Assembly: GCA_022703625.1 (NCBI GenBank)
Contig: JAKLDH010000004.1
Span: 1-57,705 of the forward strand
Length of the DNA: 57,705 nucleotides
Direction of reading: 5' to 3'
Origin: Cyanobacteriota bacterium
Lineage (GTDB): Bacteria; Cyanobacteriota; Vampirovibrionia; Gastranaerophilales; UBA9971
The translations under genes were made by a program, and so were the position numbers. The notes beneath the pieces were generated by a model. It made no database searches, had not been told where the DNA came from, and worked only from the letters and a program-made list of their open reading frames with translations. Below, in pieces: positions 8,519 through 46,043 of the stretch (its first letter is position 1; each line of letters begins with the position of its first letter).

Positions 8519-10435
8519 ATGATTACATCTCATTCAGAGTTAAAAAATAACGATTTTACAACTAAATATAATGTAAAAAAATCTATCACAGATATCTGGC
8601 AAGACTTTTTAGAAAATTATCCGGATGTAATCGCTGTTGTAGACAGATATAGCAGCATTAAACTTACTTATAAAGAATTATATGACATAATTTACTTGTT
8701 TGCGTCAGGGCTTCAGGCATTAGGGCTTAATAAGGGCGATCATGTTTCTTTATTTTCCGAAAACAGCTCGAAATGGCTGATTGCGGATCAGGGAATTCTT
8801 TTAGCAGGCGGGGTTGATGCCGTTAGAGGTTCACAAACTCCCGTTAACGAACTTTTTTATATTGTTAAGCATAGCGATAGCAAGGCTCTTATTGCTGAAA
8901 ACTTTGAAACAATAAGCAAACTATTACCCTGTCTTGAAAATTATCACTTGAATTTTATAGTTTGCCTTTCAGAAGAAGAGTTTTCAGAAGAAATTAAGGC
9001 TAAATATAATATTTATAGCTTTAATCATGTTGTAGACATCGGTAAAAAACATCCTCTCAAGCCTATTAATGTAAATAAAAACGAAATTGCAACTCTGGTT
9101 TATACTTCCGGCACTACAGGAGAGCCTAAAGGAGTAATGCTAAGCCATGAGAATATTTTATCCCAGCTCGAAACTCTTACAGGCGTTTTAAGGTTTTTAC
9201 CGGGCGAAACCGCTTTAAACACGCTTCCTCCCTGGCATGTTTATGAAAGAACCTGTGAATACTACCTGTTGTCCTGCGGAGTAACCCTTCATTACACCAA
9301 TGCGCTGAATTTTAAAGCTGACATCCAGCGTTATAAGCCAAATTACCTTATAGCTGTACCTAGAATCTGGCAGGCTATATATTCCGGCATACAAAATGAG
9401 CTTAAAAAACAGACTGTTATAAGACAGAAATTTATCAAATTCCTCTTAAAAGCAGACGAGTTCTATATAAAATCGAAGAGAATTTTAACAAATCTTTGCG
9501 CTGACAACATAAACTGCTCTTTTATAAAAAAAATTCATGCTTTTATACTTTTTTGTTTATCTTATCCGTTTCATAAATTTTCAGAAAAATTTTTGCAAAA
9601 AAAACTTCAATCTGCTTTAGGAAGAAATTTTAAACTTGGAATAAGCGGCGGAGGAGCTTTAGCGGGATATCTGGAGGATTTTTACGAAGCAATAGGGGTT
9701 AATATCATTGTCGGTTATGGACTTACAGAAACCGCGCCGGCGCTAACTATCAGAAATCCTGACTATAACCTCAGAAAGTCAGCCGGAAAGCCTTTAAATA
9801 AAACTGAAATAAAGATTGTTAACCCTGAAAGCAATAAGGAGTCAGGTTTTTTAGAAACAGGGCTTGTCATGGCAAGAGGTCCACAGGTCATGAAAGGTTA
9901 TTACAAGGATATTGAAGCGACACAAAAAGTATTGTCTTCCGATGGGTGGCTTAATACAGGCGATTTAGGCTGGGTTACGCCGCAAAATGACCTGGTTTTA
10001 ACAGGCAGGAACAAAGATATCATTGCGCTTTCAAACGGTGAAAATATAGAGCCTCAACCTTTGGAAGATGCTTGTTCCTCAAGTTCCTACATAAATCAGA
10101 TTGTGCTTGTCGGTCAGGATAAAGCTTATCTCGGAGCTTTAATCGCTCCTAATCTTGATTCTGTGCAGGAATGGGCGAAAAAACAATCGCTTAATTATAT
10201 GGATGTTTCTGATATTTACAAGTGTCCGAAAGTTCATAATTTGTTTAAAAAAGAGCTGAAAGAACAAATTCAAAAAAGGGCAAATTACAGACAGTATGAG
10301 AAAATTCAGAGTTTTAAACTATTAGAAGAGCCTTTCACTGTGGAAAATGGGCTTTTAACACGGACAATGAAACTTAAAAAAGCTGAAATACAGAAAAAAT
10401 ATCAGGATTTGATAGAAGAGATGTTTAAAACTTAA
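8519..10435 (+). CDS. fadD: long-chain acyl-CoA ligase (AMP-forming), FadD family
   Basis: This 638-aa enzyme belongs to the ANL superfamily and activates fatty acids through an acyl-adenylate. The AMP-binding P-loop-like motif YTSGTTGEPKG is at about 195-205. GYGLTETAP is near 400 and GWLNTGDLG near 480. The C-terminus (about 540-638) carries the insertions usual in COG1022-type long-chain ligases, ending with RTMKLKKAEIQKKY. A short A+G-rich leader follows miaA by 13 bp, so it may be co-transcribed. The exact acid substrate cannot be read from sequence. Confidence 0.9.
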   Translation: MITSHSELKNNDFTTKYNVKKSITDIWQDFLENYPDVIAVVDRYSSIKLTYKELYDIIYLFASGLQALGLNKGDHVSLFSENSSKWLIADQGILLAGGVDAVRGSQTPVNELFYIVKHSDSKALIAENFETISKLLPCLENYHLNFIVCLSEEEFSEEIKAKYNIYSFNHVVDIGKKHPLKPINVNKNEIATLVYTSGTTGEPKGVMLSHENILSQLETLTGVLRFLPGETALNTLPPWHVYERTCEYYLLSCGVTLHYTNALNFKADIQRYKPNYLIAVPRIWQAIYSGIQNELKKQTVIRQKFIKFLLKADEFYIKSKRILTNLCADNINCSFIKKIHAFILFCLSYPFHKFSEKFLQKKLQSALGRNFKLGISGGGALAGYLEDFYEAIGVNIIVGYGLTETAPALTIRNPDYNLRKSAGKPLNKTEIKIVNPESNKESGFLETGLVMARGPQVMKGYYKDIEATQKVLSSDGWLNTGDLGWVTPQNDLVLTGRNKDIIALSNGENIEPQPLEDACSSSSYINQIVLVGQDKAYLGALIAPNLDSVQEWAKKQSLNYMDVSDIYKCPKVHNLFKKELKEQIQKRANYRQYEKIQSFKLLEEPFTVENGLLTRTMKLKKAEIQKKYQDLIEEMFKT

Positions 10436-27631: not shown

Positions 27632-28282
27632 CTAAGCGACATATTTAAATTTACATTTTGACTTAATATATTCGTTAGGGGTTGAATATTGAATTATATA
27701 GCTATCTAATGACTTTTTTAAGCCAGAAATGTTTCCGAAGCATGTGTTATGGGTTTTCTTTTCTCTAATATCCTTCCATATTATTTCTTTTGGATTTAAT
27801 TGCGGAGAATAAGGAGGCAAATAAAGAAGCTTAATTTTGTCTTTATTCTCTTTAAGCCATTTTTTGGTTTTTTTCGATTTGTGAGGACTTGCATTATCAA
27901 GAATCAAAAGAATTTTAATCCCATCAAATTTTTCTTTAATCAAAAGTTCTAAATAGGCTATAAAGACATCAGAATCAAAATTTCCCTTGAATACAACATC
28001 AGGAATTTCACCTTTTTCAACATTTACTGAACCCAAAATACCTATTTTATCTTTTGAAGCGGAGCTTTGAACACAGGGCGCGCTTCCTTTTTTCCGCCAG
28101 ACTCTTTTTATTGTACTTTCAAGATGAAAGAAAGCCCCGTCAAAAAACATTATTACTCGCTTTTTTAGTTTTTTATTTAGTTCAAAAAGCCTTTTAATGC
28201 GTTTTTTAAACCTTTCTTTCCTGTCATTATTTTGTTTTTGTTCCGGTGGAATTTTTCGAGGCCTCCTCAGGGGACAAACCAA
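27632..28282 (-). CDS. IS630 transposase, C-terminal DDE part
   Basis: This 216-aa frame is the catalytic domain. It shows FFDGAFFHLE (first Asp), ILLILDNASPHKSKKTKKWL (second Asp) and LLYLPPYSPQLNPKEIIWKDIR (Glu), the usual IS630 DDE layout. It overlaps the N-terminal frame by 56 nt. The formal TTG start of this frame is probably not used; synthesis as a fusion by frameshifting is more likely if the element is active. Confidence 0.8.
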   Translation of the reverse strand: MVCPLRRPRKIPPEQKQNNDRKERFKKRIKRLFELNKKLKKRVIMFFDGAFFHLESTIKRVWRKKGSAPCVQSSASKDKIGILGSVNVEKGEIPDVVFKGNFDSDVFIAYLELLIKEKFDGIKILLILDNASPHKSKKTKKWLKENKDKIKLLYLPPYSPQLNPKEIIWKDIREKKTHNTCFGNISGLKKSLDSYIIQYSTPNEYIKSKCKFKYVA

Positions 28283-28697
28283 GCTTATGAAAAAGCCTTT
28301 GACATTGTCTTATTCCAAGTTTTATCTGATATTGTTCTTTTAAATGGCGCGCCAGTAACTTACCATCCCAATCATTATTTTCATAGTCAATATCCAGAGG
28401 ACTTTTTTCTATATCAATTTTTAAAAGTTCTTCTATTTCTGGAATTATGCTTGATTTTCTTCCAGGTCTTTTCTTGTCTTTAAGCGCTTCTAATCCTTTA
28501 TCATTTGCTTGATTTATCCAGTTTGATATACTCATCCTGCTTATTTTAAAAAGCTTTGAAACTGATGTTATATGATGTCCATTTGATACAAGAGCTAAAA
28601 TATCAATTTTTCTTATAAACCTAGCGCTTTCACTGCTTTTAAATACATTTTTAATTTCTTTTTGTACTGTCTCTTTAAGCTTTAAACCGTTTTTCAT
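28227..28697 (-). CDS. IS630 transposase, N-terminal DNA-binding part
   Basis: The 156-aa frame holds the helix-turn-helix region of an IS630 transposase (about 30-75: VSNGHHITSVSKLFKISRMSISNWI). KKRPGRKS and a second winged-helix segment ending RLFHKLGLSPEE follow. Around TTG TCC CCT GAG the family sequence continues in the +1 frame, giving GLS-LRRPRKIPPE. The product is therefore either joined by +1 frameshifting at the CCCC run or inactivated by one inserted C. Confidence 0.8.
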   Translation of the reverse strand: MKNGLKLKETVQKEIKNVFKSSESARFIRKIDILALVSNGHHITSVSKLFKISRMSISNWINQANDKGLEALKDKKRPGRKSSIIPEIEELLKIDIEKSPLDIDYENNDWDGKLLARHLKEQYQIKLGIRQCQRLFHKLGLSPEEASKNSTGTKTK

Positions 28698-28778: not shown

Positions 28779-29688
28779 GTTGCAATCCTGATTTTGTTGG
28801 AATAGAGGTATAAATAATTATAACAGATATAGAATTATTCAAGTCTTTTGCGTTTCAATCCTGATTTTGTTGGAATAGAGGTATAAATCTTCTGGGTTCA
28901 TGAGATTTCCTCCAATTATTTATCGTTTCAATCCTGATTTTGTTGGAATAGAGGTATAAATTAGATGAACCTAGATTTGATTTAAGACTCACTTCTAGTT
29001 TCAATCCTGATTTTGTTGGAATAGAGGTATAAATAGTGAGGTATTTTAGCGAGCGAATGCAACAAACAATGTTTCAATCCTGATTTTGTTGGAATAGAGG
29101 TATAAATAATAACATTTCCGTTAGACATAGTTCCTAGTTTCTTGTTTCAATCCTGATTTTGTTGGAATAGAGGTATAAATACCATAATAGCTCCCTAATT
29201 CTTTATCCCTTACTTGTTTCAATCCTGATTTTGTTGGAATAGAGGTATAAATGAATCATCAAGTTCTAACGGCTTATGCTTTGGATAGTTTCAATCCTGA
29301 TTTTGTTGGAATAGAGGTATAAATTCTTTGTCTTTATTTATTTTATTGATTATTTCGTTGTTTCAATCCTGATTTTGTTGGAATAGAGGTATAAATTCCT
29401 GATCCTCCCTCTCATTCATGCATTGACTAGTGGTTTCAATCCTGATTTTGTTGGAATAGAGGTATAAATAGCCTTGTAGCTTGCCTATTAAAAAATATAT
29501 TAATTGTTTCAATCCTGATTTTGTTGGAATAGAGGTATAAATCAGGCGAAAGGCTTACATTTCATTCAATTACGTATAGTTTCAATCCTGATTTTGTTGG
29601 AATAGAGGTATAAATATTGACTAGTCCGGCTTTTTTTTAGCCGGTTTTTTTGTTTCAATCCTGATTTTGTTGGAATAGAGGTATAAAT
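28779..29688 (-). CRISPR. type I-B CRISPR array, 13 repeats and 12 spacers
   Basis: A 37-bp repeat (on the + strand GTTTCAATCC...GTATAAAT) recurs 13 times, from 28779, 28852, 28925, 28998, 29071, 29144, 29216, 29288, 29360, 29433, 29506, 29579 and 29652. Spacers are 35-36 bp. Read on the minus strand the repeat ends ATTGAAAC, the usual 5' handle, so the array is transcribed leftwards, in line with the cas genes. The only variant repeat is the leftmost (28779, GTTGCAATCC), as expected at the trailer end. The newest spacer is then 29616-29651. Confidence 0.98.
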
Positions 29689-29891: not shown

Positions 29892-30473
29892 TTACCTTAC
29901 GCATATATTTTTATAACAGCAATCAGGGCATTTATTCGCAGACTTCGTCTTTGGGGGGAAATATCCGGTTTCTATGACCTTAACCACATCGTTTATTAAG
30001 CTTTGTGTGTCAGAAAAGCTCTTTGCGCTGAAGTTCATTTCCTTAACAAGATTACTTGAACGAGTATAACACACAAATCCCTTATTTACAGGCGCATTAA
30101 AGTTTTCCTGAATTAATAAGGCATAAATGTTGGATTGGTAAAAATGTGTTGAAAAAAGTTTCTCTTTATATTCAGCAAATTTATAGTCAAATGGCATCGC
30201 TGAACCGTCTTCCACAAAAAGTATCTCGTCCAGAATCCCGTGAATATTGTATTTCTCAGAGTTTAGAGGGACGTTGATTTCCTTTCTTACTACATTTAGC
30301 TTTTTGCGCAGATAATTTTTGTTAACTTCCGCTTTAATTAAGTGAATATCCCTGCCTTTTTGAACTTTATACCTTTTTTCTTCATGCTGGGGAATATCAA
30401 GACAGCGCATAAAATAGATGAACCTTGGGCAATAAAGATATTCGATAACATCAGAAGCAGTGATATTAGCCAT
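29892..30473 (-). CDS. cas4: CRISPR adaptation nuclease Cas4
   Basis: The 193-aa Cas4 trims prespacers and helps select the PAM. An N-terminal Cys in EYLYCPRFIYFM and the C-terminal cluster CPDCCYKNIC give the four cysteines of the Fe-S site. The RecB-like nuclease part includes GRDIH, the Asp of LDEILFVEDG and the PFDYKFAEYK (D...E-x-K type) motif. It follows cas2 with one base between stop and start, and is the last gene before the leader. Confidence 0.93.
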   Translation of the reverse strand: MANITASDVIEYLYCPRFIYFMRCLDIPQHEEKRYKVQKGRDIHLIKAEVNKNYLRKKLNVVRKEINVPLNSEKYNIHGILDEILFVEDGSAMPFDYKFAEYKEKLFSTHFYQSNIYALLIQENFNAPVNKGFVCYTRSSNLVKEMNFSAKSFSDTQSLINDVVKVIETGYFPPKTKSANKCPDCCYKNICVR

Positions 30474-30474
30474 A

Positions 30475-31739
<1,265 letters not shown>

Positions 31740-31956: not shown

Positions 31957-32000
31957 AAAAAAAGATACCAGCAACCATAAAGTTGTGGTATCCTTTTTTT
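31957..32000. terminator. bidirectional terminator between the DUF1508 gene and cas1
   Basis: GATACCAGCAAC and GTTGTGGTATC pair with one bulge around CATAAA. Seven T follow on the + strand (31994-32000), and seven A before the stem give a T-run on the minus strand. It lies 27 bp beyond the stop of the 51-aa gene and should end the transcript coming from cas6. Confidence 0.75.
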
Positions 32001-32026: not shown

Positions 32027-32182
32027 TTAACCTTTATAGCCGTTTCTTTTTGCGTTAGCTATGCAATCACTTTGGTTATGATAGCCTTCGCTGGAACTGC
32101 CAACAATTCTGCCGTTAGGAGCTATCCTTCTCCAACGCCATTGACTGCTAGGGTCTTTGTAAAATTCCCATTTGTCGGGCAT
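32027..32182 (-). CDS. 51-aa DUF1508 (YegP-like) protein inside the cas locus
   Basis: ATG at 32182 is chosen over the upstream in-frame start, because a near-perfect GGGAGGTG lies 8 nt before it. The 51-aa product (MPDKWEFYKD...WRWRRIAPNGRIVGSSSEGY...) is one DUF1508 repeat, the fold of YegP-type proteins. The pattern is F-x-Y-KD, W-RWR, A-NG-I, SSEGY and a terminal N-AKRNG. The role of DUF1508 is unknown. It sits between cas6 and cas1 on the same strand and ends before a strong terminator. It has its own candidate promoter (32306-32334). Not a known core Cas protein. Confidence 0.8.
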   Translation of the reverse strand: MPDKWEFYKDPSSQWRWRRIAPNGRIVGSSSEGYHNQSDCIANAKRNGYKG

Positions 32183-32221
32183 CGCCTTTTCACCTCCCTT
32201 CTTTAAACTTGCTACTTTCAC

Positions 32222-32358
32222 TAATTGATCCGGATTTTATTGGAAATAGAAAGTACAATAACGTAAATTAGTTCGTTTCAATTCAGCTTTATTTTGAATA
32301 TGATAATTAAATCATAGGTCGAATTTAAAGTCAAATTTTAGAACTAATTTATGTTATT
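32222..32358 (-). ncRNA. candidate crRNA-like element with two degenerate CRISPR repeats
   Basis: Read on the minus strand, 32312-32275 aligns with the array repeat at about 27 of 38 columns and ends in an intact ATTGAAAC handle. Positions 32259-32222 align at about 24 of 38, best in the core (TCTATT..CCAA.AAAATC.GGAT). The 18 nt after the handle (GAACTAATTTACGTTATT, 32274-32257) match + strand 32341-32358 at 17 of 18 positions; the mismatch is at position 12. The matched site is preceded by TTA, where a type I PAM would lie. This layout resembles CreR/CreA RNAs. A plain 102-bp inverted-repeat element would also fit. Confidence 0.45.
32306..32334 (-). promoter_or_regulatory. promoter inside the cas6-DUF1508 gap
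   Basis: On the minus strand TTGACT (32334-32329), a 17-bp spacer and TTTAAT (32311-32306) match sigma-70 boxes at five of six positions each. Transcription would begin near 32299, within the first degenerate repeat, and would run through its handle, the pseudo-spacer and the DUF1508 gene. The pseudo-spacer's match site (32341-32358) lies 7 bp upstream of the -35 box. Confidence 0.5.
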
Positions 32359-32365
32359 AAATACA

Positions 32366-33022
32366 CTAATTTATATTTACCACCCCAAACCCCTTAGCCA
32401 CGCCTTTGCCTAATCCCACCTGCTCCGGGATTATAATATTCGTCTTGAACTGCCCCGTGAATGTCGTTACTTTTAAGTCTTTTATTTCTGATATAACCGG
32501 TTTTAGAAATAATTGAACCTCAATTTGCTTTTCTACTGTATAACCTAATTCCTTACACATCCTTAAAATATTCGTAGTCAGGATTTTCTCCAGCATTTTG
32601 TCTTTTTCGCGGTTACTTGTCAGTGCTTTGTATTGAGCATAATTTTCCTGATTCAGAGCATACCATGGGGTCGCAAATCTATACTGGATATAGTCATCAA
32701 CCAGCTTTATTTCTTTATCTTCAAGAATAAGACGTTTTTCCATGATGGGGTATTCTGTATAACCTATTTTTATTGAATTAAAGCTGTCATAATGCTTTAT
32801 TATGCTTTCTGCGCCTTCATTGAATCCAATTACAAGCGGTCTGTTGTTGCTGAACCTGTATTGTATGCGAGGATATCGGTAAATCTGGCTTCCGTCCTCA
32901 TTATGGTTATGAAAAAGGTCAACTGAAGAGAAAGTATTAGCGAAAAATCCCCGAAGTTTTTGCGCTTCCTGATATTTTGCTTTCTTGTCCAGCTCTAGTA
33001 TTAATTTCGCTATCTTTACCAT
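32366..33022 (-). CDS. cas6: CRISPR RNA endoribonuclease Cas6
   Basis: The 218-aa protein cuts the pre-crRNA in the repeats. RAMP-type features are the YRYPRIQYRF strand and the C-terminal glycine-rich loop GLGKGVAKGFG (about 203-213). A His in DLFHNHNEDG (about 37-40) could be catalytic. It begins 3 nt after the cas3 stop. Size and neighbours match I-B Cas6. Confidence 0.9.
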   Translation of the reverse strand: MVKIAKLILELDKKAKYQEAQKLRGFFANTFSSVDLFHNHNEDGSQIYRYPRIQYRFSNNRPLVIGFNEGAESIIKHYDSFNSIKIGYTEYPIMEKRLILEDKEIKLVDDYIQYRFATPWYALNQENYAQYKALTSNREKDKMLEKILTTNILRMCKELGYTVEKQIEVQLFLKPVISEIKDLKVTTFTGQFKTNIIIPEQVGLGKGVAKGFGVVNIN

Positions 33023-33025
33023 AAT

Positions 33026-35521
33026 TTATACAATCATTATCCCTGAATCAAAATCTTTATCACTTTCATCAAACGTAAGTCCAATTCCCCCGGACTTATA
33101 ATATTTTTTAACTTCATCATTTGGAATTATTATCGGATTTCCATCCAATTCCTGATACTGAATTTCACTAAAATCAAATTTTTGATTTTTCTTTACCCTG
33201 ACTGAAATAACATATTGATAAAACTCTTTTTTTAGTTCCAGTAATGCGTTTTTTCTTTCAAATCCTTTTTTAGTGTCATAAATTTCTTTGAATTTATCTT
33301 TAATCTTTGTAGCTTTAGGATTTAGTTCTATAAAAAAGTCCTGAGATTGGCTATCCTCAATAAGCTGAAACTCCTTAATTCCTTCAAAATCGAGGGATTT
33401 CATGCTGTCAAGAATTTTCTTGCTTGTATCATCCGACTTGCATTCATTTACTTTTTTATAATATTCATTAGCCAGCGAGAAAAATTCATTTTCGCTGTAT
33501 TCGTTTTTTTTCTCTAAAACTGTTTTTGTTGCTTCCCTCAAAATCTGCTCATAGACATAACCTGAAAAGAAGTTGCCATTCTCGTTTTTGAGATTAACTA
33601 TCTTTACCTGACCTTTATTTTCTCCGCCATTACCATTGCGATTGCATCTTCCTGCCGACTGAAAAATGCAGTCCAGCGGCGCTAAATCTCTGTACACAAT
33701 ATCTAAATCAATATCCACGCCCGCTTCAACCACCTGTGTACTGACTATGACATATTGTTTCATCTTTTCTTTTATTTCTTTAAATTCAGGCTTTTTCTCG
33801 CATTCTTTACACAAAATAGGATTTTTTATTTCATTAATTATCCTGCTTCTTTCAAAAGGCAAAATCGTAGTGGAAAGGTATTTCAGCTCAACTCTGTTTT
33901 TATCAAGTTCCTTATATAAATGACTAAACACATCCTGCGAGGATTTAATTGTGTTGAGTATGATTAAGAATGATTTATCGGGATTATCCTTAATATCCTT
34001 GACCAAAACCCCTTTAAAAGTTTCTAAAGTCATATCTTCTTTTAATCTTGAAGTATCGAGGATTATCCTGTTCAACTCAGGGCTTTCGTAATAATCTTTC
34101 TTCTTTTTTTCATCAATCACAGAAACTATTTCATCATCCTTAAAGATTAAAGGCTGTGTAGCAGTTACCAGAACAAAATATGTATTAAACACTTTTGAAA
34201 ATTCTGTCAAAACCTCATTTATGAGCTTCCAATACTTGTAGGGCACTGCCTGTATCTCGTCCAGAATAACTATTGAGTTTGCTATATTATGAAATTTCTT
34301 CAAGCTCTTGTTCCGGTTGCTTATCAGGCTGTGGAAAAACTGCGCGAACGTGGTAACGACAATAGACGACATCCAGTTTTCAGTTAAAAGCAGGCTTTTG
34401 TCAGTTTCAAGGGATTCATTTTCATCGGGTTTTTCGTCTTTCTGTGTTTTATAGGCTATTTCAGCAAGATGATGATGCTTTAAGAGCTTATCGGAAGTAA
34501 TTAATTCGCCATTTGATTTTAAAATTCCTTCTATAACAGAGTAATTCTGGTCAATAATACTGGTAAACGGCAGGCAGTAGATGATTTTGGGGTTAAAATC
34601 CAGTTTTTCTTTTATCTTAAAAGCAAAATTCAGGCTGGCAAATGTTTTTCCCGTTCCGGTCGGGACGTTTATGGAATATATTTTTTTCTCCGGATTAAAT
34701 TGAAACTTGTTTATCTGTTGGTATATGTCCTCTCTGATGTTATTTATACCTGCTTTTGCGAGGTTATCGGGTTTATTTTTGTGGTTATCCACAAAAGCTG
34801 AGGTATGTTTAAATTCCTGAATGTTTTTAATAATATTTTTAAAATCATCTGATTCGGAAAGCCCCGAAGCATCGAGTTTATCAGCATCTATAAGCAGCGA
34901 AAACAGGAATTGGATCAGGAAGAAGGAATTTAAATTATTATTTTTAATGGAATCAATAAAATCAATAATTTGATAAATCAGTTCAGAATCTTCCTCAACT
35001 TGCAATATGAATTCCTTAAAATCAATAACAATTCCATCTTCTTTTAAAAAATAATTATAGATTGATTGTATTTCATTGAAATCAATTGATTTTATTTGTT
35101 TTTCTTCAGTAAAACCAATGTCAAAATCAAAACTATTTTCAATTACTTTCGGTAATTGTCCATGGTGGGAATTAATAGCAATAAAAACAGATAATTTTTC
35201 CTGCAAATTCAATTTTTCAGCAAGATAAAACCCAAAAAATGCAGATAATTTACTGTGATTTGTTTTATCACTTTTTTTTGTTTTATCGTAAAGATATTCC
35301 TGAAAAAATTTTGTTGATTTGCCAAAATCATGAGCAATTGCAATAATTTTAGCGATTTTTTTTATTTCATCCTTAGAAATATCAAAATTTAATCCGGTTT
35401 TTTCTATTTTATCTAGAATTTGATTTTTAACATTTTCTAAATGCTTGATAAGCGGCTTATTAGGATGTGATTCGATTTTATAATCGCAAAAACAGGATAT
35501 TTCGCTCTGACTGAGGCTCAT
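33026..35521 (-). CDS. cas3: CRISPR effector nuclease-helicase Cas3
   Basis: ATG 35521 is chosen: a GGAG lies about 8 nt upstream, whereas the in-frame ATG at 35527 is too close to it. About 831 aa. The N-terminal HD nuclease (about 15-220) shows HLENVKNQIL, AIAHDFGKSTKFF, NHSKLSAFFG and INSHHGQLP. The SF2 helicase has Walker A PTGTGKTFAS (about 288), DEIQ in VILDEIQAVP (about 420), motif III LVTATQP and motif VI FQSAGRCNRNG. It degrades DNA unwound at Cascade-bound targets. Both active sites look intact. It overlaps cas5 by about 44 nt. Confidence 0.95.
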   Translation of the reverse strand: MSLSQSEISCFCDYKIESHPNKPLIKHLENVKNQILDKIEKTGLNFDISKDEIKKIAKIIAIAHDFGKSTKFFQEYLYDKTKKSDKTNHSKLSAFFGFYLAEKLNLQEKLSVFIAINSHHGQLPKVIENSFDFDIGFTEEKQIKSIDFNEIQSIYNYFLKEDGIVIDFKEFILQVEEDSELIYQIIDFIDSIKNNNLNSFFLIQFLFSLLIDADKLDASGLSESDDFKNIIKNIQEFKHTSAFVDNHKNKPDNLAKAGINNIREDIYQQINKFQFNPEKKIYSINVPTGTGKTFASLNFAFKIKEKLDFNPKIIYCLPFTSIIDQNYSVIEGILKSNGELITSDKLLKHHHLAEIAYKTQKDEKPDENESLETDKSLLLTENWMSSIVVTTFAQFFHSLISNRNKSLKKFHNIANSIVILDEIQAVPYKYWKLINEVLTEFSKVFNTYFVLVTATQPLIFKDDEIVSVIDEKKKKDYYESPELNRIILDTSRLKEDMTLETFKGVLVKDIKDNPDKSFLIILNTIKSSQDVFSHLYKELDKNRVELKYLSTTILPFERSRIINEIKNPILCKECEKKPEFKEIKEKMKQYVIVSTQVVEAGVDIDLDIVYRDLAPLDCIFQSAGRCNRNGNGGENKGQVKIVNLKNENGNFFSGYVYEQILREATKTVLEKKNEYSENEFFSLANEYYKKVNECKSDDTSKKILDSMKSLDFEGIKEFQLIEDSQSQDFFIELNPKATKIKDKFKEIYDTKKGFERKNALLELKKEFYQYVISVRVKKNQKFDFSEIQYQELDGNPIIIPNDEVKKYYKSGGIGLTFDESDKDFDSGIMIV

Positions 35522-36224
35522 TTTCATAACTCCAATACTTTACAGGCTCTGCTTTTATGGCTTTACAGTTTTTTTCAAACAGCGCTTCACAATATTCTTG
35601 CGCAATTCTTTCTTTATCTAATCTGTTAGGCATTCTTACATTGAAATATTCAGAATCTTCATAATCAAGTTCAATAGAATTAGGCTTAACATACTTTTTA
35701 TTAATTACAGAATGGATATAAACTGCGCTATCAGCTTGTTTCTCCTGCAAATTGAGTTCACTTATAAATTTAAAGTCTGCTATATGCTCGCTTATTCCAA
35801 GATAAGGAGTATAAACACTGGTATGATTCTGCAAATGCTCCTTTAGTTTGTTATAAATGGTTTCATCTTCGTGGCTAAAATAAACGATGTAATATGGGTC
35901 TTTAAGATATTCATACCTGATTTGCGGCATTCTGTTACTTTGCTTTTGAACATCATAGTAACCGGTCTTCATTGCGCTGACTCCCGGCGCAAGCGATAAA
36001 TTTATACCCAGACGCATTTTTTTTACAGAATTTTTTAAGCAAATTCCTATATAGCTCTGCTCGTTCTGGCAGGTATCGTTATTTTTTGGCAATCCGATGA
36101 TTGCGCTAATTATGCCTGCCAGAGCTGGTCTTGTCGGGAATGGAAAAGTAAGGGGGGAAGAGGTTGTATAAGGTTTTCTAAAGTGGGCAAACTCTCCCCA
36201 TATTTCAAATTTTAATGCTTTCAT
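35478..36224 (-). CDS. cas5: Cascade subunit Cas5 (I-B)
   Basis: The start is placed at the ATG that begins MKALKFEIWGEFAHFRKP (36224). The frame opens earlier, inside cas7. The 248-aa RAMP protein has the Cas5 N-terminal strand followed by SPLTFPFPTRPALAGIISAIIGL, typical of Cas5h. It caps the 5' handle of the crRNA in Cascade. The start lies 2 nt past the cas7 stop, so expression is coupled. Confidence 0.92.
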   Translation of the reverse strand: MKALKFEIWGEFAHFRKPYTTSSPLTFPFPTRPALAGIISAIIGLPKNNDTCQNEQSYIGICLKNSVKKMRLGINLSLAPGVSAMKTGYYDVQKQSNRMPQIRYEYLKDPYYIVYFSHEDETIYNKLKEHLQNHTSVYTPYLGISEHIADFKFISELNLQEKQADSAVYIHSVINKKYVKPNSIELDYEDSEYFNVRMPNRLDKERIAQEYCEALFEKNCKAIKAEPVKYWSYENEPQSERNILFLRL

Positions 36225-36226
36225 CT

Positions 36227-37222
36227 TTACACCATAGAATATACGTTGAACCACGGCTTTTCTGACAACTTAATCATTTGAACGCATTCTACATTAAGCG
36301 ATAATTCCATATCTTCATCAAATTCATAGTAAATGCGTTCAATTTTGTCTTTATGTTTTGCAAGAGCTTGTTCTAGCTTGCTCATGTTTAATTTATAGTC
36401 GTCAATAGAGCGAAGCTGTTCGTCTTGTAAGCCTTCAAGATTATCCATTTTGATTTTTGAATCCAAATCGCCAATATAAAACCCTGGCTTATAGTCGATT
36501 TTCATAAGCAATCTTGGAGTATGCCCAATTTTTGAACGGGTGTTAAGTTCTTTTGTTCCCCACCACGTTGCCTGGAGAAGTTTCTGTACATCTTCTTCGC
36601 TTAATTTATTATGCGCGGCTGTGTTTTCATTGATTACTCCATAAAACCTGATTAATGAATAATTTAATTTTTGGTCAAATCCGAAAGTTCCTGCGCCTTT
36701 GCCAGAGCTGTGTTGCATTGTTACTGCAAGCTGGTCTTCTCTATCAGACACTCTGTGCAATGATCTGCCTGTTCTGAACTGAACTGCTCCGGTTATAGCA
36801 TTTGAGTCATCGCTTTTCGCTTCAGCGTTTTCCTCTGAATTTTCTTCATTAGCTTTAGCATTTTTGCTTTTTTTATCTTCTCTTTTTATTGCAAAAGTAC
36901 CGCCAAAGAGTCTTATATCAATACAATCATTTAAAACTTTTGATATTGAATTATCAAAATCCTGCATTCTTTCTTCTTTTGAACGGACTTTATTGTCTTC
37001 TGTTCTGTCAGAGAGCATAAAAACATTATTCGGCGAGGTTTGTTTGTGGAATTTTGCCATAAAATCTCTGATAGTCCTTTTTAAGCGGACATCTGTAACG
37101 TAATTTATTTTAGTCTCTTCATCAATACGGGGTTTATTTTCGTTTAAGGGGTCGCCGTTAGGGTTATTGTCCTTAACATCATAGAGGAAAATAATCTCTG
37201 AGCGGTTTTTAATTTCTGACAT
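36227..37222 (-). CDS. cas7: Cascade backbone subunit Cas7 (Csh2 family)
   Basis: This 331-aa protein coats the crRNA spacer as a filament. The N-terminus RSEIIFLYDVKDNNPNGDPL...RIDEET is the Csh2/DevR signature; TDVRLKRTIRDF follows. A Lys/Glu-rich insertion (about 120-145: KKSKNAKANEENSEEN) looks disordered. An AAGGAG ribosome site 8 nt before the ATG is among the best in the locus, consistent with a subunit needed in several copies. Confidence 0.94.
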   Translation of the reverse strand: MSEIKNRSEIIFLYDVKDNNPNGDPLNENKPRIDEETKINYVTDVRLKRTIRDFMAKFHKQTSPNNVFMLSDRTEDNKVRSKEERMQDFDNSISKVLNDCIDIRLFGGTFAIKREDKKSKNAKANEENSEENAEAKSDDSNAITGAVQFRTGRSLHRVSDREDQLAVTMQHSSGKGAGTFGFDQKLNYSLIRFYGVINENTAAHNKLSEEDVQKLLQATWWGTKELNTRSKIGHTPRLLMKIDYKPGFYIGDLDSKIKMDNLEGLQDEQLRSIDDYKLNMSKLEQALAKHKDKIERIYYEFDEDMELSLNVECVQMIKLSEKPWFNVYSMV

Positions 37223-37237
37223 CTTTTGTACTCCTTA

Positions 37238-39109
37238 TTATACTTCTACTAATTGCTCTTCTTGTTCTTTAAACGCTTTTTTATGGAAATCCCTGGACAA
37301 AGTAATTCCAAGACTGAATAAATAACTTGTTTCTGATGGACTTAAATCGTTTTCTTTAACATTAGCCATAACTCTAGCAACTTCATTAATTAATTCATCC
37401 AAATTTTTATAACTAAATTTTTTAACTTTTCTTTTGTATTTTTGAGGATAGTCTTTTAGTTCAGCAAGCCTAAAACTTTGCAAAAATTTTATATCAACTT
37501 TAAAATTCCTATATTTTTTATAGATAGGTTTTGAATCCCAGTTTTCATAATACAAGGTCTGCAAAATAGCGATTCTTTCAACTAAAATACCATATCCTAA
37601 AACAGCTTTTTTAGCTTCGCATTTTTCATCATTGGGATTAAAGTAATGCGGGAACAAACCGCAAAATTCATCCAATAAAGGTGTTTCTAATTTTCCCATA
37701 TTTTTTTTATCTCCCTGTTTTAAATTAATATTTTCTTTAAACAATCCTAGCTTTGTAAAAACGTTTATTAAATAAAAGCTATCAAGTATATTTTTTTTGA
37801 AATAATCATTTTCTTTAGGCTGTAAATATTTTGGAATTTGCTCATCTATGCGCTTCATAAACTTATTTAATATATAAGAAAAATTTAATGGTTTTAAATT
37901 AAAAATTTTATTCAGTACAGCGCAAAACTCTTCCTTGTTTTTATCCAACCCTTTATTGTCCTTATCCACCATAAAAAGTTTTATGACAAATAAAGGATTA
38001 TCGTATACATTTGAAGAATGGCTCATATCAACATGTTTAAATTCCTCCGAAAGTTCCCTTGCTGTTTCAAAAAACTTCCTTAAATTGGTGGGGGCAACTT
38101 CTTCTATACTTGCTAAAATATCAGTTTTAGCCTGTTTTTGCTCATAAAAGAAAAAATTATAATTCAGGTAATTATTTTCGTTTGAAAGTTCTTTTAAAAT
38201 CCCTTGTTCCAGTCTTCTAACAGTAGAACCGTCTGTTTGTTTTGGAAGATTTTTTATTTCTTCATATTTTTTAGAAATTTTCTCTACAATTTCCTTAAAT
38301 CTAGCTGGATTATCATTCACAAGCTCAGGAATAAAAAAATAATTAATGTTAAATAGCTTGAAGCTAAGATTTTCTTTTAAATATTTCTTGCCTTTGTTAT
38401 TTATTTTATTTGCACAGTCAAGACAGATGGGGAGTTGCTTAACAGAGTTCCCAGGATTTAATTCATAGCTAAAACGCCCTCCTTTAACTGTATAAAAACT
38501 AAAGGGGCTGGCAAAACCATAAACTTCTTTATTTTCACCTTGGCAAATACTGCAACAGGAATTATCTAACCTAGAGTCTTTAATATTATCCTGGATTGAA
38601 GTTGAATATTCCTTAATTTTTTCCTGTTCATCAACTATAAGATTTATAAATTCTGGGCGTTTTCCTATAAATTCCTGATTTATCTTAATTGACAGAAAAT
38701 ATGTTTTACTAGGTATTTTTGCAATATCTTGTTTTATTTGTTCTTCTATTTCTTTATCATTCAGAGCATCTTTTATTGCTTTAAAAAGCGCATTATCATT
38801 TTGTTTTTTGTCAAACCAGTTATAAATTTTTTGTTTATAACTTTTTTCATAATCATTAAATTTTACTGTTGGTGTTTTATTTATTCCTTTAGCAACTGTT
38901 TTATTAGGATACAAAAGCAGTTCAACATCACTTGAATCTAATTCTTTTGAGTAAATTCCAGTATATTCAATTTTTAAATCTTTTTCATTTAATTCCAAAA
39001 AATAAGCCATGTAACAAGATTTGCTTTTTGGATTTTCAAGGCTATCCCTAATATCTAGCCCGCTGTCCTGTCCATCTAGCTCTGCTAATTCTTTTATTAA
39101 TGTAAACAT
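37238..39109 (-). CDS. cas8b: Cascade large subunit Cas8b
   Basis: The 623-aa first gene of the effector operon. Large I-B subunits vary strongly. Supporting features are position before cas7-cas5, length, and a zinc-ribbon-like CCSICQ...CLDCAN at about 184-231, as in Csh1/TM1802-type Cas8b. It recognises the PAM and helps recruit Cas3. The C-terminus (about 520-623) is helical and probably serves as the small-subunit part. GAAGGA lies about 11 nt upstream of the start. Confidence 0.88.
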   Translation of the reverse strand: MFTLIKELAELDGQDSGLDIRDSLENPKSKSCYMAYFLELNEKDLKIEYTGIYSKELDSSDVELLLYPNKTVAKGINKTPTVKFNDYEKSYKQKIYNWFDKKQNDNALFKAIKDALNDKEIEEQIKQDIAKIPSKTYFLSIKINQEFIGKRPEFINLIVDEQEKIKEYSTSIQDNIKDSRLDNSCCSICQGENKEVYGFASPFSFYTVKGGRFSYELNPGNSVKQLPICLDCANKINNKGKKYLKENLSFKLFNINYFFIPELVNDNPARFKEIVEKISKKYEEIKNLPKQTDGSTVRRLEQGILKELSNENNYLNYNFFFYEQKQAKTDILASIEEVAPTNLRKFFETARELSEEFKHVDMSHSSNVYDNPLFVIKLFMVDKDNKGLDKNKEEFCAVLNKIFNLKPLNFSYILNKFMKRIDEQIPKYLQPKENDYFKKNILDSFYLINVFTKLGLFKENINLKQGDKKNMGKLETPLLDEFCGLFPHYFNPNDEKCEAKKAVLGYGILVERIAILQTLYYENWDSKPIYKKYRNFKVDIKFLQSFRLAELKDYPQKYKRKVKKFSYKNLDELINEVARVMANVKENDLSPSETSYLFSLGITLSRDFHKKAFKEQEEQLVEV

Positions 39110-42875: not shown

Positions 42876-45800
42876 CTAATCGGGAGAAAGAATATCTTTA
42901 ATATCCTCAAAAGTAAGCGTTTTCGAGATATCACGTTCAACAGAAATTACAGAATCAACAAGATCGCGTTTTCGCTCTTTAAGCTTCATAATTTTTTCTT
43001 CAACGGAATTTTTGGTTATTAACCTGTAAACAAAGACATTTTTGGTCTGCCCAATTCTGTGAGCCCTGTCTGTTGCCTGATCTTCAACGGCAGGATTCCA
43101 CCAAGGGTCGTAGTGAATGACATAATCAGCCCCTGTAAGGTTAAGTCCTGTTCCTCCGGCTTTTAAGCTGATAAGAAATATAGGAATAGCACTGTCGTTA
43201 TTGAACCTATCTACAACTGCTTTCCGGTCTTTTGTTGAACCGGTGAGATATTCGTACTTTATGCCGCTTTTTTCAAGCCATTCTTTGATAATATCCAGCA
43301 TTTGAACAAATTGGCTGAAAAGCAGCACTCTGTGGTTTTCGCTGATAATTTCCTCAAGCATTTCCTTGAGATGTTCAAATTTGCCGGAATTATTGATATT
43401 ATACTGTCCATCTTTATCAAAAAGCTTCGGATGACAGCAAATTTGCCTTAAACGAAGTAATGCCGCAAATACAGACAGTTTGTTTTTTTCAAGGCCGCCG
43501 CCGGAAATTTGTGAAAATATTTCCTGCCTTGTGCTGTCAAGAACATCAAGGTAAAAATCTCTCTGTTCCGGTGTCATGTGACAATATGCAATATTTTCTA
43601 TCTTGTCAGGTAGGTCTTTTGCGATATCACGCTTTAATCTTCTTAAAATAAACGGATAAACTTGCTTTTTAAGCCTGTCGCCAACCGTACGATCAGCTTT
43701 TTCCTGAATAGGAACAGCATATCTATAGTTAAATTCATTGCCGTCGTATAAAAATCCTGGCATAAGAAAATCAAACGTTGACCAGAGTTCTGTTAAATTG
43801 TTTTCAATCGGCGTGCCTGATATAGCAAGTCTATGAGTAGCGTTTAATTCTCTTGCGGACTTTGATGTTAAGGAATCATAGTTTTTTATATTCTGAGATT
43901 CATCCAGCGCAACGATTCTGAATTTAAATTTCTTTAAATCCTCTATGTCCCTTCTTAAAAGAGCATAAGAAGTTATCGCAACGTCATAATCTTCAATCTT
44001 TTTAAACAAATTTTTTCTTGTTGGACCTGTTATATTTATGTATGAAAGCTTTGGAGCAAACTTTTCGATTTCAGCTTCCCAGTTAAACACTACAGAAGTG
44101 GGACAAATAACTAAACTAGGAGCTTTTCCATCTTTTTCTTTAGCTTTTTGCAAAAGAGCAAGGGCTTGAAGCGTTTTTCCAAGACCCATATCATCGGCAA
44201 GAATGCCGTTAAGCCCATACGAATATAAAAACCAAAGCCAATTATAACCTTTTTTCTGATATTCCCTAAGCTCTCCCTTGATAGCTCTAGGCAAAGGCAC
44301 ATCTTCCATGGCATTAAAGCTGCTAATCTTGCTCCAGAAGGTTTTAAACTTTCTGCCCATTTTTATTACAACGTCGTTTTCCTCAAGCTCTGCAACAATT
44401 CCAGCCCTGTATGTTTTTATGACAAATTTGGATTTTTCGGATTCCAAAGCGTCAACTGCGCTCAGGGCGGCGTTTATTTTCATCATTTTAGCGACAGGAA
44501 GCTCTATATTGCCTTTTTCCTCAAGATAAAAGTATTTTTGCCCCTGTTGAAAGTATTTTTGTATAACTTGATAATCAACCTCAGCCTTGCCGACAGCGCC
44601 GGAAAGATTGATTTCAAAGCTATCTCCGGCTTCTGTAAAATCAATGTCAGCTGTAATTTTCAGCGGAGTATCGGAAATTTTGAATTCGGCAAGATCATCG
44701 GACTCAATGACTTTCCAAGTTTCTCTAGCGTTTGGAAGCAGGTAGTTATAGAAATCGATTGCGCAATCACCTTCAACAACAAGGTTATTGGTTTGTGTAG
44801 GAGTAAATTTAGCCTGCAATAAGTTCTGATAAGCCTGTTCTTCATAATTAAGATTTCTTTTTACCCAGTATATAAGGTCTTCTTCACGTTTTTTTATTGT
44901 TACATAAGGTGTTTTCTCGGCAAGTTTGCCATAAGGCACAGCTTCTCCTTCATATTCAAAGCTTAAAGTAGCTTTAATTGCTCCATGTTCTGTTTTTTCA
45001 AGGCTTAACACGTTTAAAGGCAATCTTTGTTCGAGAGTAAGCTGTTCAAGCTTTTCATAAACTTCAACAGTAGTTAATTTTTTAAGTTTAGGCAGTTCTT
45101 CATAAACAAATTTACCGCCATCAGCGTCCCTTATGTCTGTAAAAGTCGATTTTGTAAGATATGCAGGAAGCGTTGCCAATTCTGTATCCAAAGGAACAAT
45201 AATATTCTTGTATCTTGCCCATTTTGCGTTTCTTGAAAAATACTGAAGTTCCTCAAGAGGCAAAGTATCTTCCGGATCAGGTCTATCCCAATGCAAAGAA
45301 AGCAGAACATTACCTGCTACAGAAACATTTACTCTGAAAATTAGCTTCCAGATGTCGTTTTTAAACAAAATTCTTTTTTTAGTTTCGCTGTCCACAACTT
45401 CTTCGACTTTTGCAAGGAACGACATCAGCATATCAGCTTTATTTAGCGGAATATTATGCCATATAACGTTTTTCTTTACCAGTTCAAACTTAAAAATATG
45501 CCGCAAAAGAGCAAGTTCTTTCATTTGAGCGTCATTTAACGTAAAAGTTCCATTACTTTCCTTTTGTAAATTGATAATTGTTCTTAAAATAACTTCTATA
45601 TTCTTGATAATGTCATTTTTAACCCTGTCAACTATCTGTATCCCTATATATTTAGCATTTTCAGGAGCATTAAGTATAAATTTATATGTTCCTCTTGGGT
45701 TTTCAACTTCAGGAGGGTTTTCTTCCTCAAAATAAAATTCTTCTCCGGTTTTTTGCGTCAAAAACTGTTCGTAATAATGTCTTTTTACGCTTTCAAGCCC

Positions 45801-46043
45801 AACGCAAACCGCATGTTTGCACCATTCTTCCTCAAGGGGGCATGTACATTTTGCGGTAACTTTTTTTGTTGTGAAATGCAGGGTTATATCGTATTTATCC
45901 TTGAAAGAACCTTTAACAGAAGCGTTTACCTCGCTGTTTTTCAGCTCGGATTTTATTATCTGACCTTTTCTGTAGTAGTCATAACCCCTTCTCCAACTGC
46001 CTGGAGCCGCCAGTTCCTTTATATACTTAAAGTTAAACTTCAT
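42876..46043 (-). CDS. SWIM-domain SNF2-family ATPase
   Basis: The 1055-aa protein has an N-terminal SWIM zinc finger (CTC...CKH, Cys66, Cys68, Cys75, His77) and a long middle region typical of bacterial SNF2 proteins. The Swi2/Snf2 motor follows: DDMGLGKT (about 614-621), a DESQ box (about 713) in place of DEAH/DEAQ, SGTPIENNL, LFSQFVQML, LKAGGTGLNL and DRAHRIGQ. It probably remodels protein-DNA complexes or aids transcription recycling. Convergent with the mannosidase, only 18 bp apart. Single-gene unit. Confidence 0.93.
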   Translation of the reverse strand: MKFNFKYIKELAAPGSWRRGYDYYRKGQIIKSELKNSEVNASVKGSFKDKYDITLHFTTKKVTAKCTCPLEEEWCKHAVCVGLESVKRHYYEQFLTQKTGEEFYFEEENPPEVENPRGTYKFILNAPENAKYIGIQIVDRVKNDIIKNIEVILRTIINLQKESNGTFTLNDAQMKELALLRHIFKFELVKKNVIWHNIPLNKADMLMSFLAKVEEVVDSETKKRILFKNDIWKLIFRVNVSVAGNVLLSLHWDRPDPEDTLPLEELQYFSRNAKWARYKNIIVPLDTELATLPAYLTKSTFTDIRDADGGKFVYEELPKLKKLTTVEVYEKLEQLTLEQRLPLNVLSLEKTEHGAIKATLSFEYEGEAVPYGKLAEKTPYVTIKKREEDLIYWVKRNLNYEEQAYQNLLQAKFTPTQTNNLVVEGDCAIDFYNYLLPNARETWKVIESDDLAEFKISDTPLKITADIDFTEAGDSFEINLSGAVGKAEVDYQVIQKYFQQGQKYFYLEEKGNIELPVAKMMKINAALSAVDALESEKSKFVIKTYRAGIVAELEENDVVIKMGRKFKTFWSKISSFNAMEDVPLPRAIKGELREYQKKGYNWLWFLYSYGLNGILADDMGLGKTLQALALLQKAKEKDGKAPSLVICPTSVVFNWEAEIEKFAPKLSYINITGPTRKNLFKKIEDYDVAITSYALLRRDIEDLKKFKFRIVALDESQNIKNYDSLTSKSARELNATHRLAISGTPIENNLTELWSTFDFLMPGFLYDGNEFNYRYAVPIQEKADRTVGDRLKKQVYPFILRRLKRDIAKDLPDKIENIAYCHMTPEQRDFYLDVLDSTRQEIFSQISGGGLEKNKLSVFAALLRLRQICCHPKLFDKDGQYNINNSGKFEHLKEMLEEIISENHRVLLFSQFVQMLDIIKEWLEKSGIKYEYLTGSTKDRKAVVDRFNNDSAIPIFLISLKAGGTGLNLTGADYVIHYDPWWNPAVEDQATDRAHRIGQTKNVFVYRLITKNSVEEKIMKLKERKRDLVDSVISVERDISKTLTFEDIKDILSPD

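Follow-up and report, generated by a model that had tools for sequence, protein, structure and literature searches.

Does the gap between cas6b and the next gene of a type I-B CRISPR locus hold a crRNA-like guide directed at a promoter of that same locus, and, if so, which gene would the guide control? The window, by which we mean the whole stretch of 57,705 nt analysed here from a 2.5-Mb genome, contains such a gap, and a sequence-only reading had proposed that it encodes a CreA/CreR-type guide with a self-target.

Organization of the type I-B locus

The window carries a complete type I-B CRISPR locus on the minus strand, in which cas8b (TM1802), cas7, cas5 and cas3 (33026-39109) are followed by cas6b (32366-33022; the predicted processing enzyme, PF17955 and PF17262), the gap, a DUF1508 gene, the adaptation genes cas1, cas2 and cas4 (29892-31739) and the cognate array. 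The reading frames of all effector cas genes are intact, and cas1 has a promoter-like site of its own at 31849-31821 in a consensus scan. The array (28779-29688, minus strand) consists of 13 copies of a 37-nt repeat, ATTTATACCTCTATTCCAACAAAATCAGGATTGAAAC on the minus strand, and no further copies of this repeat were found elsewhere in the genome. The array's own spacers, searched in order to derive a PAM, gave no phage match. Cas6b had a match in 1 of the 386 genomes searched in the phylum, namely its own genome, and Cas6 was not found in viral contigs; Cas6b is thus foreign to its phylum, and horizontal transfer is the probable origin of the type I-B locus. Searches of its order and phylum gave no close relative of the cas locus, which counts against the proposal developed below.

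Two degenerate repeats in the cas6b-DUF1508 gap

The gap contains two degenerate repeats, 15 nt apart and oriented like the array, which flank a spacer-like segment outside the array as in creA/creR-type guides. The first, psi-R1 (32275-32312, minus strand), is the best non-array match to the array repeat in the window; its 5′ handle, ATTGAAAC at 32282-32275, is intact (8 of 8 bases), with 19 of 29 bases kept outside the handle and 10 of 16 in the core. The second, psi-R2 (32222-32259, minus strand), is the third-best such match and has decayed differently, keeping 14 of the 16 bases of its Cas6-side core, TTCCAATAAAATCCGGAT, and losing the handle (3 of 8). Scored against the array repeat, the pair reached 28, compared with 22 for the next-best repeat pair in the window and with a mean of 7.8 (sd 2.8, maximum 21) when the gap was dinucleotide-shuffled 3000 times; the pair exceeded every one of these shuffles. 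The positions, the intact handle and the conserved core given by the sequence-only reading were thus correct, and the pseudo-repeats passed the comparison with shuffled sequence that it had called for. One result counts against the proposal: with a profile built for the clade, psi-R1 scores just 8.0 and is marginal within the tested set.

In published two-repeat creA genes, the 5′ handle of the crRNA-like RNA comes from psi-R1 and its 3′ handle from psi-R2 (PMC8501985), and the sequence of the psi-repeats shows this signature. Since each repeat has kept only the part that its role needs, the decay is uneven in a way that is unexpected for a dead array. A search of Rfam returned no match, and a second mini-CRISPR, sought upstream of cas8 in the window, was not found.

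A guide that matches a site upstream of itself

Between the two repeats lies a pseudo-spacer, psi-S (GAACTAATTTACGTT, 32260-32274, minus strand). The bases 3′ of the psi-R1 handle, GAACTAATTTACGTTATT, match the plus strand at 32341-32358 in 17 of 18 positions, starting exactly at the first spacer base, and the sole mismatch falls at position 12. The last three matching bases are the start of psi-R2, so that the 18 nt first described as the pseudo-spacer are the length of the match, and the spacer proper is about 15 nt long. In 2000 shuffles of the 400 bp around the site the guide match never exceeded 15 of 18. Chance similarity in AT-rich DNA, which had been offered as a partial source of the likeness, is therefore ruled out: shuffles reached neither the pair score nor the guide match.

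The trinucleotide TTA stands at the PAM position of the target (32338-32340, plus strand), as the sequence-only reading had observed, and the same trinucleotide precedes seed-matched targets in ten relatives. We learned this PAM from the relatives with the window locus left out. In creTA experiments, positions 1-5 and 7-11 of the guide were essential and positions 6 and 12 were free (PMC8501985); in the window the seed matches at 10 of 10 positions beside the TTA PAM, as in creA/creR-type guides, in what is probably a promoter region. PAM plus seed occur once in the 2.5-Mb genome, at the 32341-32358 site, but this uniqueness is weak evidence because 0.7 occurrences are expected by chance from composition. 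The proximity of the target to the guide, on the other hand, is strong evidence. The target lies on the strand opposite to the guide, an arrangement shared among twelve elements only with L046 (the L numbers denote loci of relatives), and this counts against the proposal. Neither the cas8 promoter nor the array leader in the window has a guide match.

A separate observation concerns the sequence of the target, which shares with the 3′ end of cas6b a 10-bp direct repeat (32344-32374; ATAAATTAGT on the minus strand, 22-bp period). The target may have originated from this repeat.

A probable promoter and a proposed guide-DUF1508 transcription unit

Read along the minus strand, the target and its PAM are followed by TTGACT-17-TTTAAT, psi-R1, psi-S, psi-R2, GGGAGGTGA, the ATG of DUF1508 and a hairpin with a U tract. 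We take TTGACT-17-TTTAAT (32306-32334, minus strand) to be the probable promoter of a guide-DUF1508 transcript. Its −10 element overlaps psi-R1, and the target lies at the position of an UP element; in Citrobacter rodentium, a target over the UP element has been proposed for a protein CreT (PMC12055562). The hexamers are as the sequence-only reading had described them, although the consensus scan omits this promoter, because its −10 lacks A at position 2, and lists a weaker overlapping one instead. GGGAGGTGA is a strong Shine-Dalgarno sequence (32190-32198, minus strand), and the terminator-like hairpin and U tract lie 3′ of DUF1508 (31957-31999, minus strand; −21.1 kcal/mol for a fold of 32015-31950).

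The DUF1508 gene (32027-32182, minus strand) encodes a single-domain protein of 51 aa (UPF0339; PF07411 over the cut-off) and, to judge from this arrangement, is likely the gene regulated by the guide. Small plasmids of enterobacteria and Aeromonas encode proteins with about 70% identity to it. The predicted fold of the window protein is confident (pLDDT 94) and matches the UPF0339 structures HVO_2922 and NMB1088; a likeness to T7 Gp1.2 was weak (E 0.27) and was set aside, all other fold matches being UPF0339 proteins. PADLOC gave no match for DUF1508, and Foldseek gave no toxin match. No further cas-linked DUF1508 was found among 80 genome loci of relatives, which counts against the proposal, and DUF1508 was not found in the 25 of these 80 Cas6b-relative genomes in which it was sought. 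Among the plasmid homologues, 51-aa DUF1508 genes were seen on plasmids of 3.5-7 kb (L099, L100, L110-L112), some of them beside RelE, ToxN or AbiE-type genes; pECA1039 carries both a DUF1508 homologue and ToxN.

Mini-CRISPRs with TTA-flanked targets in related loci

The nearest Cas6b proteins come from Methanothrix, Methanoperedens, Clostridia and Bacteroidota. Cas6 alone, used as a query of genome contigs, gave no matches, and an alignment with plasmid Cas6 proteins gave 361 relatives, from which 80 were kept. Many of their loci share a 37-nt repeat pattern ending in TCCAxxAAAACAAGGATTGAAAC. In these 80 loci and six plasmid loci we scanned for ectopic repeats outside arrays with a seed-matched site within 900 bp. 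Ten elements had TTA before the site (L019, L021, L046, L048, L056, L061, L063, L073, L080 and L090), compared with one for nine other trinucleotides together. In a PAM-blind version of the scan TTA preceded the site in 11 of 12 hits, window included, whereas shuffled spacers gave 0-2 hits and none with TTA. A loose test that accepted any PAM and handles with up to two mismatches found TTA no more often than it did with permuted handles; the signal parted from noise only once a repeat-like core before the handle was required. A handle-based search added an element in Runella rosea (L017).

Mismatches in the relatives are confined to positions 6 and 12 and to positions beyond the seed. The distance from the handle to the psi-R2 core is 20-33 nt in 9 of 11 relatives and 30 nt in the window, and distances this short indicate that most elements carry truncated spacers. 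Together with the shuffles and the pattern of repeat degeneration, the ten independent relatives with TTA back the original proposal of a CreA/CreR-type guide with a self-target.

The elements differ in layout. In Clostridia (L048, L056, L063, L080, L061 and L073) the target lies 95-166 nt upstream of the guide on the same strand, leaving room for a creT, as CreTA has. In L021 (Methanosarcinales) it lies between the guide and cas8, just upstream of cas8, and by its position this element looks like CreR for cas8. L017 and L090 place the target in the promoter region of the guide itself, where it overlaps the start of psi-R1 or directly adjoins it. The window shares this third, leader-type arrangement, and the gene that follows is DUF1508.

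Several of these loci deserve description in their own right. The CreTA-like modules of L048 (2182-2285), L056 (2048-2154), L063 (4294-4396) and L080 (4231-4326) occupy the Clostridia cas4-cas8 gap on the opposite strand; in each, the target precedes the guide by about 100 nt and has a TTA PAM, and three of the four have mismatches at 6 and 12. Those of L061 (7187-7353, Acetivibrio) and L073 (3004-3156, Clostridiaceae) are convergent and stand directly after cas6, with possible short reading frames separating target and guide. Methanothrix-like archaea have a mini-CRISPR with a TTA-flanked target between cas4 and cas8 (L021, 3040-3198; L019, 2816-2997). In a Lewinella MAG (L090, 2544-3547; JAGQXH010000045.1) the mini-CRISPR forms part of the leader of a DUF3800 gene that precedes cas8, and the target, next to TTA, shares bases with the TATAAT of the element's probable promoter. 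The Runella rosea plasmid (L017, 2774-2880) has a mini-CRISPR upstream of cas8, with a psi-R1, TTTCAAAATTCAAATGAATTGAAAC, that resembles that of the window; a terminator-like hairpin and a small ORF rich in Cys come next. In the cas6-cas1 gap of the same locus (9640-9660) a handle-like ATTGAAAC precedes a 58-aa ORF. Runella sp. SP2 (L018, 5746-5782) has a single ectopic repeat upstream of cas8 on the opposite strand.

Proposed mechanism

These features are best accounted for, in our judgment, by a mini-CRISPR that lies in the leader of the small protein gene DUF1508 and represses itself through Cascade, and we regard this reading as probable. A transcript beginning near 32299 would run through psi-R1, psi-S and psi-R2 into the DUF1508 reading frame. 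By cleaving both degenerate repeats, Cas6b would release a crRNA-like RNA whose predicted mature form, 32282-32230 (5′ ATTGAAACGAACTAATTTACG), is about 53 nt long. The type I-B Cascade would take up this RNA and bind the TTA-flanked site at 32341-32358, directly upstream of the −35 box. Because the guide-target match (15-18 nt) is too short for Cas3 cutting, Cascade would act there solely as a repressor. In a Parageobacillus I-B system TTA performed best as PAM, and guides no longer than 25 nt repressed without cutting (PMC10551041), and TTA is a recorded I-B PAM in Methanosarcina (PMC8482600). DUF1508 and the guide would be repressed together, staying low while Cascade is intact and rising upon loss of Cascade, its inhibition by an anti-CRISPR or competition from crRNAs.

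We suggest tentatively that DUF1508 is a Cascade-repressed effector, either a toxin or a second-line defence factor, which a block of CRISPR would release and whose guide lies in its own mRNA leader, and that leader mini-CRISPRs with a TTA self-target are a control element that recurs in Cas6b-type I-B loci and their accessory protein genes, such as the DUF3800 gene in Lewinella.

Alternative explanations

A specific form of the main proposal is a CrePA-like addiction module, in which the guide is the antitoxin and DUF1508 a protein toxin that would kill the cell or halt its growth when Cascade fails. The unit sits inside the cas operon with its own promoter-like site, Shine-Dalgarno sequence and terminator-like hairpin, CreA is known to control protein toxins (C. 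rodentium; CrePA), and several of the DUF1508 homologues on small plasmids are next to toxin genes (RelE, ToxN, AbiE). Toxin genes are, however, common on small plasmids in any case, no toxic activity of DUF1508 is known, the domain occurs in E. coli, Caulobacter, Haloferax and Methanosarcina, and PADLOC and Foldseek yielded no toxin, so that this form appears doubtful. We judge it unlikely that DUF1508 is a bystander and that the guide is a CreR-type autoregulator of cas expression, acting either on cas6 read-through into cas1-cas2-cas4 or, as a sensor of free Cascade, on its own abundance. CreR guides are repressors of cas operons, the L021 target lies just upstream of cas8, and the scan lists no terminator-like site between cas6 and the guide; yet the U-tract hairpin after DUF1508 and the promoter-like site before cas1 speak against this reading, as does the lack of a guide match at the cas8 promoter and array leader in the window.

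Readings that give the element no function fare worse. The strong degeneration of the repeats and the probable horizontal acquisition of the locus would suit a fossil of an old CRISPR array that is functionless at present, with the match left over, but such a fossil would hardly decay so unevenly, each repeat retaining what its role needs, or leave a match that begins with the first spacer base, lies beside the correct PAM and has no mismatch in the seed; we consider it very unlikely. The sequence-only reading had named as its main rival an 18-bp inverted repeat of a small element, and formally the match is an 18-bp inverted repeat in AT-rich DNA, whether of a mobile element or as a hairpin in the cas6-DUF1508 spacer. 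Dispersed copies of the segment, named there as grounds for refutation, were absent: the 191-bp segment occurs once in the genome, as do PAM plus seed. The mobile-element inverted repeat is thereby ruled out, and the explanation as a whole, which would also leave the two repeat-like segments and the relatives unexplained, is largely refuted and barely plausible.

Relation to known Cascade-repressed modules

By its sequence the window element belongs to the ectopic mini-CRISPRs that direct Cascade to a promoter, and neither classical CreTA nor CreR fits it exactly, because creT is absent from its usual place and the cas8 promoter is unmatched. Like the two-psi-R creA of CreTA (Haloarcula/Halobacterium hubeiense and others; PMC8501985, PMC9458426), it keeps the psi-R1 handle and the 3′-handle part of psi-R2, and it shares the seed of positions 1-5 and 7-11, a self-repressed operon (as proposed here), the location in a cas gap and the type I-B system. 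Unlike CreTA, its guide precedes the regulated gene, its cargo protein belongs to a known domain family, and its PAM is TTA rather than TTC. There is no creT gene, nor a creT-sized segment, between the targeted promoter and the guide in the window, because the target borders directly on the −35 box and transcription is predicted to start inside psi-R1. With CreR it has in common a predicted crRNA-like RNA from the cas locus that would target a promoter in the same locus, whereas the controlled unit appears to be DUF1508. The type I-E CreTA of Citrobacter rodentium is similar in its protein-coding cargo and its PAM-adjacent target at an UP element and differs in its system type, its cas3-casA gap and its unrelated 96-bp toxin ORF (PMC12055562).

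The nearest concept appears to be that of CRISIS (CRISPR-suppressed immune systems; PMC12409349). As described in PMC12737573 and PMC12409349, CrePA and CRISIS likewise place a protein gene repressed by Cascade among cas genes; here DUF1508 lies between cas6b and cas1 and would be repressed in the same way. CreP under CreA is a KilA-N, FtsZ-directed protein toxin, and the cargo of CRISIS has anti-phage activity and is freed by anti-CRISPRs. DUF1508 is neither a KilA-N toxin nor a known defence gene; the DUF1508 unit may still be a functional analogue of CrePA. Should the CRISIS work already include leader-located guides or DUF1508, the window element would be no more than a further member.

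If the proposal is true, the orphan DUF1508/UPF0339 family would be tied to CRISPR integrity, with a role that can be tested, and a repressor guide could reside in the 5′ leader of the gene under its control. At least 11 elements in Methanosarcinales, Clostridia and Bacteroidota that follow one rule (TTA plus seed 1-5, 7-11) form a ready test set, and the same rule could be used to find more hidden Cascade-controlled genes in cas gaps.

Surroundings of the locus

At 42876-46043 lies a lone SNF2 helicase matching the DpdE and ZorD models, with no partner genes among the neighbours examined. An IS630-type transposase in two overlapping reading frames (27632-28697) adjoins the distal end of the array.
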